Below, in pieces: positions 42,899 to 49,159 of a DNA stretch of 49,736 bases (the stretch's first letter is position 1; each line of letters begins with the position of its first letter). This DNA is from Akkermansia sp. (GTDB lineage: Bacteria > Verrucomicrobiota > Verrucomicrobiia > Verrucomicrobiales > Akkermansiaceae): assembly GCA_017521405.1 (NCBI GenBank), contig JAFXCP010000025.1, forward strand, positions 1 through 49,736. The letters run 5' to 3'. Under the pieces are notes generated by a model, which had not been told where the DNA came from, did no database searches, and saw only the letters and a program-made list of their open reading frames with translations. Made by a program: the position numbers and the translations under genes.

Positions 42899-43636
42899 AT
42901 GTCCATGTTCATGCAGCCCGGCCGGCCCTGCTCCGTGTACCCGGAGCGCATTGTGCTGTGGATAGATCCGGTGCCGCGCAGCGGGTATCGCAATATGGCT
43001 GCCGATGAACTGCTGACTCGGCGCCCGGAAGCGTGGCTTCGCATCTATGGCTGGGAGCGGGATGCCGTGAGCTTTGGTTATTTTGACACCGTGGCGGAAG
43101 CTTCCTCCCTCTTCCCCGGGGCGGAGGAGTATATACGCCGCTGGACCGGCGGCGGCATTGTAGACCACCGCATCGGCCACACCTACACCGTTACCCTCCC
43201 CGCAGTGGAAGGGCTTATGTACCCCCCGGCAGACCAGCTCTACCTGTGGATTCATGGGGCATTGGCCAAGGCACTGCAGCAAAGCGGAGTGGAATGCACC
43301 CTGCTTACGGAGGATGCTCCGGATGGTGGGCGTGCCTGCTGGGCCAGCCCCGTAAAGAGCGATATCGTTAACCCTGCCGGGCAAAAGCTGGCCGGAGCCG
43401 GGCAGCGTCGTTATAAAGGAGCCGTCTTGCACCAAGGGCTCATCCAGCAGTGCGAGCCTGCGGATGGCTGGCAGCGGCTACTGGCGGAGGCACTGGCACC
43501 GGAGGTTCTTGTGGTGGAAGGGGAGGAGCCATTCACCGGTTTTACGGAAGCATTGGAGTGCCTCGTACTCACGAAATACACCACGTCAGAGTGGAACGAC
43601 GAGAGCCGAGGCCGCCGCAAGCCCTCTGCCCATTAA
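42899..43636 (+). CDS. Lipoate/octanoate-protein ligase-like protein (BPL/LplA/LipB fold)
   Basis: 245 residues. It has the biotin/lipoate ligase fold signatures: RIYGWERDAVSFGYF, the substrate motif RRWTGGGIVDHRIGHTYTV, and the catalytic-Lys block SDIVNPAGQKLAGAGQRRYKG, with KGAVLHQGLI. The enzyme would attach lipoate or octanoate to dehydrogenase E2 or glycine-cleavage H proteins. It has no C-terminal LplA accessory domain. It lies 2 bp downstream of the pseudopilins, which gives no functional clue and may just be shared transcription. A terminator follows. Confidence 0.78.
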   Translation: MSMFMQPGRPCSVYPERIVLWIDPVPRSGYRNMAADELLTRRPEAWLRIYGWERDAVSFGYFDTVAEASSLFPGAEEYIRRWTGGGIVDHRIGHTYTVTLPAVEGLMYPPADQLYLWIHGALAKALQQSGVECTLLTEDAPDGGRACWASPVKSDIVNPAGQKLAGAGQRRYKGAVLHQGLIQQCEPADGWQRLLAEALAPEVLVVEGEEPFTGFTEALECLVLTKYTTSEWNDESRGRRKPSAH

Positions 43637-43729: not shown

Positions 43730-46700
43730 TCAGCCCTTGTGGCGGAGACGCACTTGCTCGGCCGTCCAATCGCGCATGCGGGCAAACACCGCATACAGCC
43801 CCGGCACCATGAAAATACCGAACACCGTGGCCAGCAACATCCCGAAGAAAGTGGTGACACCAATCTCAACACGGCTGGAAGCACCGGAGCCCGTGGCCAC
43901 CACCATGGGGAACACGCCGAAGAGGAAGGAGACGGCCGTCATCAGCACAGCACGGAAACGCATACTGGCACCATTCAGCGCGGCATTAGTAATATTCTCT
44001 CCCTGCTCGTGGTTTTCTTTGCTGAACTCCACCATCAGAATGGCATTTTTAGCCGCCAGCCCAATGAGCATCAGCAGCCCCAGCTGCACATAGATGGAAA
44101 GCGACAGCCCGAAGAGGTGTGCCCCCATCAGCGCGCCCAGCGTGGCCACACTTACGGAAAGCATTACCGGTACCGGGGTAGTCCAGCTTTCGTATTGCGC
44201 CACGAGGAAGAGATAGGCAAAGAGCATGGCCATGGCCACCAGCATGCCCACCTTGCCATCATTTTGGCGCTCTTGGTAGGAAAGGTCCTTCCAGCTTACC
44301 TGCCAGAAGCGGTTGAGGCCTGCGGCGCGCTCTTCCTTGTTAATGGCGGCCACCGTTTCCTCGATAAACTCCATCACCTGCCCGGAGCCCACACCTTGGC
44401 GGGCAAGCACGGTGATATCCGCGCTCATGTACTGGTCAAAGCGGTTATAAGTGCCGGGGCCCATGCGGTAGGAGAGGGTACACACGGCAGAGAGCGGCAC
44501 CATTTCCCCCTTTTCATTGCGTACCATTTGGTTCAGAATATCATCCGCCGTGCGGCGGTCCGGCGCGGCTCCCTGTATCTTCACCTTAAAGTTAAAGCCA
44601 TTCAGGGTAAAATCGTTCACATAGGAGGAAGCCATCACACTTTGCAAGGTGCTGAAGATGGTATTTACCGGCACGTTGAGGGATTGAGCTTTGGCGCGGT
44701 TAATTTCCAAGTGGATTTGCGGCGTTTCGGCATCGAACTCGCTGCGTGCCATCGTCACCAAATCCTTACGCTGCATCAGGCGGGCTTGGATTTCTTTCAC
44801 CATGTTGCCGAGGTCCTGCGGTGTGGCATCGCCGGAAACTTGGAGTACCATGGAAATACCGCCCGTAATGCCCAGGCCGCGAATAGCAGGCGGAGCCACC
44901 GCCATAATGGAAGCTTGCGGAATATCCGCACATGCCGCATTGATTTGCTGGGCAATAGCCGTGGCATGCAGCTCCGGGGTGGTGCGCTCGCTCCATGGTT
45001 TCAGCAGGGCAATCATCATCCCGTTATGCTCGCCGGAGCCGCTGGCAAAACTGTAGCCGGACTGCGTGGTAATCATATCAATACCGGGAATGTTTTTCAC
45101 TCGCTCCTCAATTTGGCGCATCACCTTATCCGTGCGCTGTTTGGCCGTAGCTGTGCCCTCCATCGTCACCATCACGAAGAGGTTGCCCTTATCCTCCGTC
45201 GGGATGAAGGAACTCTTCAGCTCCGGCGGGTTTACCATCATTAGCAACTTATCCACTGCTCCGGGGGATTCCGTGTTAGCCTGTGGGAACATACGGCTCC
45301 ACCATGTGGGCGAACCTTTGAAATAGACATAGTTGCCGAAGAGGACAGCCGCCAGCGGCAGCACCGTAAGCCACGCATTCCGCACCAGAATCCCCGCACC
45401 CCATATGTATACTGCGCGGCTTTGCTCCATCACCCAGTTAAAGGGGGCAAACATCCATTCCCGGATGCGGTGAGGCTTCACATTAGCCGGGCGCAGAATA
45501 AGCGCGCAGAGGGCAGGGGAGAGCGTTAGCGCGTTAATGGTGGAAATGCACAGCGCCACGCACATCGTCACAGAGAACTGCGTGTAAATCACGCCCACCA
45601 TACCGCCATAGAAGGCAATGGGCACATACACGGCAATCGTCACCAGCGTGGTGGCAATAATGGCACCGGTAATCTGCTTCATACTCTTCACCGTAGCCTC
45701 GCGCGGGGAAAGTCCCTCCTCTTGGATGATACGCATCACGTTTTCCACCACCACAATCGCATCGTCCACCAGAGAACCAATCACCAGAATAAGACCGAAC
45801 ATCGTCAGCACGTTCACCGAATACCCCAGCGGATACATTACCATGAAGGCACCCAGCAGAGATACCGGAATCGCAATAGCCGGAATAAGCGTGGCGCGCC
45901 AATCCTGCAAGAACAGATAGGTCACGGCAATAACCAGCAGCAGAGCCACTAACAGCGTAATCACAATTTCCTCCATCGTGGCGGAAATAGCCTGGGTGGG
46001 GTCGTACCCCATACGCCACTCCATCCCCTCCGGGAAGGTTGGCTCAATTTCCTTCATGCACTTAATGGCTGCCTCCACCGTGGCCAGAGCATTGGCATCA
46101 TTATTTTGGAAAATAATCATACCCACGTTATCCTTGCCATTCACGCGGCTGTAGCCGGAGTTGTTTTCTGCGCCAAGCTCAATGGTGGCAATATCCTTCA
46201 GTAGCGTCACATGACCATTCAGCCCGCGTTTTACGATAATGTTGCCGAACTCCTCCACCGTTTTGAGTCGGCCGGCAGCCGTCACCTTAAACGTGGCGTA
46301 GGACTGCTCATCCTGAGACCCCACGGAACCGGCCGCTGCTTGGATGTTTTGGGCACTAATAGCGGCAGTAATATCTGCCGGGGTAATATTCATGGCACTC
46401 ATACGCGTCGTATTCATCCACACGCGCATGGAATAATTGCGGCTGGGAATAATATCTGCGCTGGAAATGCCATCCACCTGGCATATTTTATCCTTTACAT
46501 TCATACGGAGCCAGTTGGATAGCTCCAGAATACTCATCTTATTCTCGTCGCACATGAAGTTCATGAAGCAGAGCATATCGCCGGAGCGCTTGCGTACCTC
46601 ATAACCCGTTTGTTTAATTTCCGCCGGCAGCTTGGATTCCACACGCTTAATCGCGTTGGAAACATTCACCATGGCCATATCATCATCCGTGCCGGATTTG

Positions 46701-46984
46701 AAAATGAGCGTAAGGCGGTAGGAACCATCATTACCGCAGGAGGAGTAGAAATACTCCAAATCATCCATACCGATGAGCTGCTCCTCCACAGGTGCGGCCA
46801 CCACCTGCGCCAACTCCTCAGAACTTGCCCCCGCATACGTCATGCGAACGGAAATCGTGGGCGGGGAAACCTCCGGGTATTCGGATACCGGCATCTTGCT
46901 CAGGCAGAGCAAGCCCGCCAGCATCATCAGAATCGAGATGACAAAGGCAAACTTCGGGCGATAAATGAAAAATTGTGAGAACAT
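43730..46984 (-). CDS. RND multidrug/lipophile efflux pump (AcrB/HAE1 family)
   Basis: 1084 residues with the AcrB plan: 12 membrane helices and two large periplasmic loops. The proton-relay Asp pair falls at 407/408 in [14 protein letters not shown], the same numbering as AcrB, and the partner Lys is in [13 protein letters not shown]. It begins [18 protein letters not shown] like family members. About 30 extra residues ([19 protein letters not shown] region) lie just before the second periplasmic loop [10 protein letters not shown], explaining the greater length. It is co-transcribed 27 bp behind a double membrane fusion protein gene. No outer-membrane factor gene is present. Substrates may be drugs, bile acids or fatty acids; this is inference. 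Confidence 0.95.
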
Positions 46985-47011: not shown

Positions 47012-49159
47012 TTATTCTGCCTGCACGGGAGAGCCATCCTCCAGCGTGGCCAGATTATTGATGATGACCTGCATACCGTTTTCCAACCCGGCAAAGACCG
47101 CCGTTCGACCCTCTGCATCGGTACTGCCGCAAAGAATATCGCGGCGCACGGCACGCCCATTCTTCAGCACAAAAACGTAGCGGCCCCGCGTATCCGTCAG
47201 CACGGCCTCCGCCGGCACTGCGGGAATTTTGAACTCCGGCTTGCGCTGCACACGAATCGTCACCACACCGCCCGGGGTAAGGTCTTTTTTCTCATTTTGG
47301 AAAATGGCCCACACATTTTGGGTAGCCGTGTTGGGCTGCATCACATTATCACAGAAGGACACCTGACCCTTTTCCGGAAAATCCTTACCACTGGCCGTCT
47401 CCAGTGTAATTTCCGCCTCGCGAATCATGCGCTCCGCATTGCCGAACATCCCCAAAATACTCGATTCGCTAATGGGGAAACGCACATAAATCGGGCTCAA
47501 CTGCACCAGCGTAGCCAGCGGGGATTTAACATCGGCAATGTAATTACCCTTCGAGAAATGGGAACGCCCGATGCGGCCGCTCACACCTGCTCGCACCGTG
47601 CAGCGGGATAAATCGTCCTCCGCCACTGTTAACTCCGCCTCAGCGGCTCCCTTTGCCGCCAGCAGCTCATCCAGCGTAGCCTTAGCACTCTCCATCTCAT
47701 CCTTGCTGGAAGCATTCAGCTCCACCAGCGTCTTTTGGCGCTCGTACTTCTTGCGGGCATCCTTAATCTTAATTTCCAACTGGGCAATCCCCGCCTTGCA
47801 AGCCTTTACCGTAGCCTCATAGCGCGTGGAATCAATGCGGAACAGCACATCTCCACGCTCCACCCGCGCACCCTCTTCAAACTTGGGCTCCTCCAGAATC
47901 CCCTGTACCAGCGGGCGCAGCTCAATGCGGTTAATTGCCTCCAGCCGGGCACCTTGGCTGGTAAGCACCGTGGGGTCTACAATAGGGCACACCTCCGCCG
48001 TGCGAACCACAGTGGGCGCCGCCTCCTGCTTCGGGGCAGCCGCTTGCCGGGGCTTTACAGCCACATCCTTGGGGAACACCGGCACCACCTGTGCCCCCGG
48101 CCGTGTTTTATGTGCACCATCCGTAATCACCACCTCCCCGGGCTGCAAACCATCGTAAATCGTCTGCATACGCCCTTGGATGCTGCCCGTAATCACCTCC
48201 CGGCGGGAAACCGTATTCTGAGCATCCAGCACATTTACAAAAGCCCCATTCGTATCATAATGCACCGCCGTCAGCGGCACCATCGTTACCTCCGCCGTAT
48301 CCATCAGAGAAATATGCAGCGCGCTGATACCCCGGTGTGTCAGCACATGCTCCTTATTATCGAACTGAGCCCAGAGCGTATACGTATCCGTACTGCCCGT
48401 CAGCAAATTATCCACAATCGCAATTTTCCCCAAGCTGGGGTAACTCCGACCCGTGGCCGTCACCATACGCACGGAAGCCACATTACCAATCTCCTTCGGC
48501 CCTCGGAAAATCGAGTTCACATCCGCCTGGCTCAGCGGAAAACGCACATAAATAGGATCCGGCTGCGTAATCGTTGCCAGCTCCTCCCCACGCGTCACAT
48601 AATTGCCGGCAGAAAGCTGCAAACGGCCGATGCGCCCCGTAATCTCCGCGCGGATTGTGCAATCATCCAAATCCTTGCGAGCGCGAATCAGCTCCGCCTC
48701 CGCCTGTGCCCTTTGCGCCTTCAGCGTCTCCACCGTAGCGTGCGCCGTTTCCGTATCCTCCACGGAAGCCGCCTGCTCCTTCAGCAGCCGTGCCAAACGC
48801 TTATAACGATTTGTCGAATAAACCAGCCGGGCATCCAACTGAGCCACCGCCGCCTCCGCCTTGCGTAGCGCCGCCTCATAGCGAATAGGATTAATCTGCA
48901 TCAGTACCTGCCCCTCCTGCACCAAACTCCCCTCCGCAAAATGCACCTCCGAGAGGAACCCCTCCACCGCCGCGCGGATATTCACCATCCGAATCGCCTC
49001 CGTGTGCCCTATACTCTTGCGTACAATTTTATCCCGCCCGCTCGTGGCCTCCTCCACCAACACATGGGAAACAGCCTTCTTGCCGCCGGGCCCTTGCCCC
49101 GCTGCAAGCCCCCCAAGCAGCAGCACCGTCCACAGGACTCTCTTAGTCAATAACTTCAT
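47012..49159 (-). CDS. Tandem double membrane fusion protein of the RND pump (two MFP modules in one chain)
   Basis: About 715 residues, twice the family size. After a signal peptide (MKLLTKRVLWTVLLLGGLAA), module 1 (about 35-365) has lipoyl halves at RAAVEGFLSEVHFAEGSLV and CTIRAEITGRIGRLQLSAGNY, a helical hairpin between them, then ITQPDPIYVRFPLSQADV. Module 2 (about 390-718) repeats the whole order at a constant offset of about 352 residues: RPLVQGILEEPKFEEGARV, CTVRAGVSGRIGRSHFSKGNY, LVQLSPIYVRFPISESSI. A Pro/Ala/Lys linker (about 366-388) joins them. There is no lipobox; ATG 49168 is an alternative start. The single chain should supply two adaptor positions to the pump encoded downstream. 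Confidence 0.93.
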   Translation of the reverse strand: MKLLTKRVLWTVLLLGGLAAGQGPGGKKAVSHVLVEEATSGRDKIVRKSIGHTEAIRMVNIRAAVEGFLSEVHFAEGSLVQEGQVLMQINPIRYEAALRKAEAAVAQLDARLVYSTNRYKRLARLLKEQAASVEDTETAHATVETLKAQRAQAEAELIRARKDLDDCTIRAEITGRIGRLQLSAGNYVTRGEELATITQPDPIYVRFPLSQADVNSIFRGPKEIGNVASVRMVTATGRSYPSLGKIAIVDNLLTGSTDTYTLWAQFDNKEHVLTHRGISALHISLMDTAEVTMVPLTAVHYDTNGAFVNVLDAQNTVSRREVITGSIQGRMQTIYDGLQPGEVVITDGAHKTRPGAQVVPVFPKDVAVKPRQAAAPKQEAAPTVVRTAEVCPIVDPTVLTSQGARLEAINRIELRPLVQGILEEPKFEEGARVERGDVLFRIDSTRYEATVKACKAGIAQLEIKIKDARKKYERQKTLVELNASSKDEMESAKATLDELLAAKGAAEAELTVAEDDLSRCTVRAGVSGRIGRSHFSKGNYIADVKSPLATLVQLSPIYVRFPISESSILGMFGNAERMIREAEITLETASGKDFPEKGQVSFCDNVMQPNTATQNVWAIFQNEKKDLTPGGVVTIRVQRKPEFKIPAVPAEAVLTDTRGRYVFVLKNGRAVRRDILCGSTDAEGRTAVFAGLENGMQVIINNLATLEDGSPVQAE

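Follow-up and report, generated by a model that had tools for sequence, protein, structure and literature searches.

The adaptor copies that surround an RND pump are usually identical, which makes the role of each adaptor position difficult to study. The question raised by the window, by which we mean the whole 49,736-nucleotide stretch of Akkermansia DNA analysed here, is whether one of its genes truly joins two adaptors in a single chain and, if so, whether the two have come to differ at the pump. The gene and its parts are as follows.

47012..49159, minus strand: tandem RND periplasmic adaptor gene, 715 aa, a single ORF with two RND_mfp and two HlyD_D23 matches
49097..49159, minus strand: signal peptide lacking a lipobox cysteine, residues about 1-21, cleavage site placed by eye
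48077..49069, minus strand: N module, residues 31-361, with half lipoyl, hairpin, half lipoyl, barrel and membrane-proximal domain (RND_mfp, AlphaFold2)
48764..48799, minus strand: RLS motif at the N hairpin tip, R121, L125 and S132, in 36 of 37 homologues
48101..48118, minus strand: box 9 of the N module, G348, H350, K351 and R353, equivalent to AcrA G363, Q365, K366 and R368, each in 37 of 37
48014..48076, minus strand: linker between the modules, residues 362-382, partly of low confidence and variable in sequence among homologues
47015..48013, minus strand: C module, residues 383-715 (RND_mfp, AlphaFold2)
47705..47740, minus strand: RLS motif at the C hairpin tip, R474, L478 and S485, in 37 of 37 homologues
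47039..47056, minus strand: position of box 9 in the C module, residues 702-707, with G, H, K and R all missing; none of 37 homologues keeps any of them

The frame runs uninterrupted from an ATG at 49159 to a stop at 47012, and its product is matched twice by each of two adaptor families: RND_mfp (NCBIfam TIGR01730) covers two stretches with a total of 433 bits against a cut-off of 94.9, and HlyD_D23 (Pfam) likewise matches in two stretches. The N-terminal and C-terminal halves are 36% identical across 307 aa (E 8e-64), with a global score that lies 80 s.d. above those of 200 shuffles, and their landmarks recur at an offset of 353-354 residues, the RLS arginine for example at 121 and again at 474. 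These values bear out the initial annotation, which had placed every adaptor landmark twice at an offset of about 352 residues and had judged the halves to be some 30-40% identical and not recently diverged. The best PDB sequence matches of each half include the MexC-like protein of TMexCD1-TOprJ1 (chain 9j3d), AcrA and MexA, and both halves also match 6vej, a 695-aa chain which we take to be a man-made TriA-TriB fusion. The annotation would have been refuted by a structure prediction in which one half failed to take the adaptor fold, but both halves take it. In an AlphaFold2 model from a 33-row alignment (33 of the 37 non-redundant proteins described below) both halves are complete adaptors including the alpha-hairpin (mean pLDDT 87.3, pTM 0.73), residues 1-27 and 365-378 are the only ones with a pLDDT below 50, and Foldseek ranks AcrA and 9j3d first. 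One exported chain thus carries two complete RND-type adaptor modules, as had been claimed from the sequence.

As the genome is a draft in 38 contigs and two homologues carry an in-frame TAG, an artefact of assembly or gene calling might be suspected. This reading is refuted by the identical architecture of homologues in 59 of 77 Akkermansia genomes, and it is scarcely credible. A hidden stop codon or frameshift had been raised as the finding that could undo the tandem; 57 of the 59 matches in the genus have no internal stop. One match is cut by a contig end (G027), and two genomes (G030 and G031) have one TAG each. The two TAGs sit at different places (in L034 of G030 and L032 of G031) and may represent error, strain variants or decay. 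In G486 the last 30 or so residues of the tandem are missing and the frame continues into a pump-like piece; at L141:1718-4150 some 85 residues that resemble residues 185-269 of the pump stand in place of the tail, after which the full pump gene follows. Either recombination or misassembly could account for this altered tail.

The remaining Akkermansia genomes help to define the distribution of the tandem form. At E <= 1e-60, 17 of the 77 have single adaptors only and one has neither form. This last genome, G493, has the second tandem adaptor considered below, and its missing match could be either a loss or an assembly gap. In 16 of the 17 single-type genomes, in which the loci were read (G479 being the other), the pump, an orthologue with 51-60% identity, is immediately preceded by a single adaptor of 365-381 aa. 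A search of 387 genomes of the phylum found the tandem only inside the genus, of which 24 members were drawn and 10 have it. As this search scored two candidates in each genome, unrelated tandems may exist elsewhere, and no row from outside the genus spans both halves in one long frame. A TIGR01730 search of 70 genomes gave two matches in one open frame, among the matches listed, only in G000 and G025, and nine long open frames with single matches in the phylum and family searches each proved on inspection to contain one module. In a plasmid protein search the matches in the best 20 of 1405 records each span about 1.0-1.1 kb and are therefore single modules matched by both halves. It had been proposed to check whether homologues are restricted to Verrucomicrobiota. 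As far as searched, the distribution is narrower, a sub-clade of one genus.

RND periplasmic adaptors usually have a membrane anchor, either a lipid or a transmembrane helix. The lipobox pattern is absent from 35 of the 37 non-redundant tandem homologues and present in two. It is not found either in 14 Akkermansia singles of the same system (a sample that leaves aside L136 and L137), so that absence of the lipobox is not a tandem trait, and a missing lipid anchor can be ruled out as a peculiarity of the fused form.

The linker that joins the modules is about 20 aa long and is predicted to be disordered. It is conceivable that the chain is cut here after export to give two separate unlike adaptors, the fusion serving only to ensure equal amounts. 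The linker is partly below pLDDT 50 and variable in sequence, which would suit such a cut, and a precedent for unlike adaptors is provided by TriA and TriB, which are 36% identical, serve one pump as separate proteins and are both needed, according to the accessible text of PMC4338810 and PMC13328181. However, no conserved processing site can be seen in the linker by eye, and the fusion has been kept across the clade with the near-absence of internal stops noted above. Cleavage therefore appears to us quite unlikely.

To see what each module keeps, we compared 37 non-redundant tandem proteins, drawn from 49 tandem ORFs, with 16 Akkermansia singles. The channel-binding motif of the hairpin tip, RLS, which we take to be R-x3-L-x6-S, is found in 36 of 37 N modules and in all 37 C modules, as against 4% and 7% of shuffled hairpin segments, respectively. 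The two modules differ at box 9. In a HMMER alignment to AcrA, G348, H350, K351 and R353 of the N module lie opposite AcrA 363, 365, 366 and 368, and each of these four residues is present in every N module. The Akkermansia singles have the glycine, histidine and lysine in 16 of 16 cases each and the arginine in 14, and 19 singles from outside the genus all have the glycine and either K or R at the lysine position. None of the four is found in any of the 37 C modules, and in 27 of these the lysine position is occupied by E or D. Other AcrA residues give a mixed picture. The equivalent of T271 is T in 33 N modules and all 37 C modules, and that of G58 is G in 33 N modules and A in 36 C modules. 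F292 and R294 have no kept equivalents in N modules, C modules or singles; together with the change of G58 to alanine in C, this means that the AcrA contact map does not transfer as a whole.

Conservation, expressed as the mean frequency of the commonest residue, also differs by domain. In the membrane-proximal domain it is 0.61 and 0.64 for C versus 0.71 and 0.74 for N, and in the barrel it is slightly lower for C (0.70 versus 0.74). The hairpin (0.71 in C, 0.70 in N) and the second lipoyl half (0.76 and 0.75) are equally conserved, and the first lipoyl half is more conserved in C (0.77 versus 0.69). Over the whole modules N is the more conserved in 622 of 666 protein pairs. Since C evolves faster overall, its loss of box 9 could reflect relaxed constraint and not a new role. 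Carried further, this would mean that the N module alone works at the pump and that C is decaying or is a merely structural filler of the ring, an explanation also in keeping with the longer stem of the C modules (1.18 versus 0.90 for N in the 43-row tree described below). On the other hand, RLS is kept in every C module, the C modules still average 58% identity among themselves, 13 positions have differing residues in N and C that are each fixed to 90% or more, and a further 10 are conserved in C and not in N. We consider it unlikely that C is filler. The 13 fixed differences and the one-sided loss of box 9 are signs of the specialisation of the halves that the initial annotation had suspected, and we favour two working modules of unlike kind.

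The gene that adjoins the adaptor downstream encodes the pump, in which two segments deserve attention.

43730..46984, minus strand: RND pump gene, 1084 aa, AcrB-like fold (ACR_tran 929 bits; model)
45227..45319, minus strand: pump insert 1, between TM7 and PC1, residues 556-586 (pump alignment, model)
44321..44353, minus strand: pump insert 2, 11 aa long and preceding TM8, residues 878-888, also in the single-adaptor relative L136

A model of the pump, built from 38 of 55 pump sequences, has query TM-scores of 0.85-0.91 to AdeJ, AcrD and AcrB. The gene after the pump, at 42899-43636, lies on the plus strand and is convergent with it; the operon therefore consists of two genes and has no channel gene. 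Other parts of the genome encode three TolC-like proteins, recognised by six OEP matches that fall in three reading frames. The convergent gene matches the LplA-B catalytic domain of lipoyl protein ligases, and it probably has nothing to do with the lipoyl-like domains in the adaptor.

An extra pump segment had been noticed beside the tandem, and it can now be placed at residues 556-586. Insert 1 is present in 15 of 15 aligned complete tandem-type pumps, with a length of 31-51 aa, and in 5 of 5 further ones, one of which has about 70 aa by eye, making 20 of 20. It is absent from the single-type Akkermansia pumps (15 of 15 plus 2 of 2, hence 0 of 17 with it) and from six of six pumps of two other systems. 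Among the 19 remaining pumps one, L107 of G143, which is not from Akkermansia and goes with a single adaptor, carries an insert of 22 aa at this position. The model gives insert 1 two short helices, at 560-565 and 576-584, with lower confidence. Since both the tandem form and insert 1 are marks of a single clade, their co-occurrence amounts to one event with no independent repeats. Nor is insert 1 a requirement of tandem adaptors in general, since the only second-system pump that was aligned, L050, lacks it, and a tandem adaptor can evidently do without. Insert 2 has a wider occurrence. The L136 pump of G480, which has a single adaptor, contains the 11-aa insert 2 and not insert 1, suggesting that insert 2 came first and making L136 an apparent intermediate. 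G480 has two complete single-adaptor systems, L136 and L137.

Phylogenetic analysis offers a view of how the tandem arose. In a 43-row tree the N modules group together (100/100), as do the C modules (100/100), and the two are united (97/85) inside the Akkermansia singles; outward from this N+C group come L136 of G480 (95/75), then L048 and L045, then other Akkermansia singles. A 95-row tree of modules and singles, from an earlier sample that overlaps with this one, also joins 18 N modules (99) and 18 C modules (100), sets N beside C (SH-aLRT 95) and places the N+C group inside the Akkermansia singles. A 27-row pump tree with the insert columns removed follows the same order as the adaptor tree, the tandem-type pumps grouping with a support of 100. 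One could argue instead for a fusion of two different, already diverged adaptors, as N and C are only about 35% identical within one protein and AU tests reject none of four trees that split N from C (p 0.148, 0.148, 0.119 and 0.062). The best tree nevertheless unites the modules within the Akkermansia singles, and the 95-row sample does likewise, so that we regard such a fusion as somewhat unlikely. We favour, without regarding it as proven, one in-frame tandem duplication in the stem of an Akkermansia sub-clade, with C changing more than N.

A second tandem adaptor, adjoining its own pump, is found on another contig of the same genome (L050:5151-8258, equal to G000:C2:41150-44254). It has about 980 aa from its likely Met, two RND_mfp matches (358 bits), a lipobox and a long C-terminal tail. 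Its modules group in the 95-row tree with another family of singles and are unrelated to the first tandem. In 32 rows, which represent 30 proteins and include three rows of the window genome itself, the RLS spacing is present in 26 N modules and absent from all 32 C modules. This adaptor occurs in 30 of 37 genomes of the genus that were searched; of the 32 that carry the first tandem 30 have it, and of the five single-type genomes none. It is also present in G493, G496 and G497, and in G482 as two matches of one frame; it was not found in G480, G013 and G028, and among 141 genomes of the class it was found only in the genus (E <= 1e-60). Tandem adaptors thus seem to have originated on two occasions, both apparently within one part of the genus, and a common cause in these cells may lie behind this.

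Taking the evidence together, we think it likely that this is a two-gene RND system whose single adaptor was duplicated, with three double chains per pump trimer, the N module having kept box 9 and the C module having lost it. The ancestral adaptor was probably duplicated in frame, and three double chains would probably then set six adaptor modules around one pump trimer, a stoichiometry that we infer. Both hairpins may have been kept because they engage a TolC-like channel, the gene for which lies outside this operon. The N module would retain the ancestral membrane-proximal contact with the pump, through box 9, and the C module would take the other position with an altered contact, an acidic residue often replacing the lysine. 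The two non-equivalent positions on each pump protomer could in this way be assigned to different modules, in either arrangement. The positions of the modules, like the transport function and substrate of the system, are likewise inferred.

Work on other pumps gives these suggestions a setting. Each pump protomer has different binding sites for its two adaptor copies, the membrane-proximal domain of copy 1 resting on PC1 and that of copy 2 on PN2, and Salmonella AcrA with G363F is comparable to an adaptor-less strain, as given in the accessible part of PMC6975555. AcrA K366 is near the entry of channel 2, and K366D in Salmonella AcrA impairs substrates of channels 1 and 2 and not of channel 3, according to the corresponding part of PMC8934357. 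On this mapping the inserts would lie at the base of the region on which the adaptor acts. The changed pump segments, TM7-PC1 and PC2-TM8, would both sit at the bottom of the PC1/PC2 entry region, close to the sites at which membrane-proximal domains bind, and the inserts may contact the adaptor. Given the effects of G363F and K366D, a ring with half its modules lacking box 9 would allow what its two positions do to be told apart. More tentatively, the adaptor ring may have been redesigned in this lineage, its two positions hard-wired in one chain with divided labour and matched by pump insertions at the base of the entry region; one module would then keep the site of pump contact and substrate vetting and the other would mostly have reversed the charge there. 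The interpretation first offered for this locus is accordingly supported in part, that is, for two modules, an old divergence, signs of specialisation and a co-occurring pump segment, whereas the trimer of doubles and the fixing of positions by the fusion stand as predictions.

That an adaptor dimer may act as a unit is a known idea, since reviews already describe DSY0927, AcrA fusions and TriA/TriB, and the initial statement that known pumps use six separate adaptor subunits was too strong in overlooking these. The adaptors of AcrAB-TolC, MexAB-OprM and TMexCD1-TOprJ1 share with each module here their fold, domain order and RLS tip, but have one module per chain, whereas the Akkermansia chain has two unlike modules, no lipobox and one module without box 9. 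TriABC-OpmH of Pseudomonas likewise has two diverged adaptors for one pump (here 36% identical with 13 fixed differences); TriA and TriB are however separate genes in nature, and here the fusion is genomic, conserved and in one ORF. Engineered AcrA-AcrA fusions (Xu et al. 2011), functional as cited in the accessible text of PMC4446572, are double chains too, but were built in the laboratory and have two identical halves. In Desulfitobacterium hafniense, DSY0927, a natural fused dimeric adaptor cited in the same text and in that of PMC4338810, belongs to an ABC-type transporter of a Gram-positive organism and joins two different adaptor types. Natural adaptor fusions are not mentioned in the accessible parts of PMC8277102 and PMC5404916. 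What appears to be new here is a conserved, naturally occurring tandem adaptor that serves an RND pump, has lost box 9 in one module only and is accompanied by a matching insert in the pump, a combination that we did not find in the open-licence literature, outside which most subscription papers lie. In A. muciniphila, ox-bile raises expression of the RND operon AMUC_RS10890-10900, as stated in the accessible text of PMC7671984, and this may or may not be the same system.

In these gut bacteria a single gene encodes both adaptor copies, which are linked and differ from each other, and close relatives keep the single form with an orthologous pump. The system therefore constitutes a natural experiment on the position-specific roles of box 9, on the assembly of 3:6:3 complexes and on joint change in adaptor and pump.
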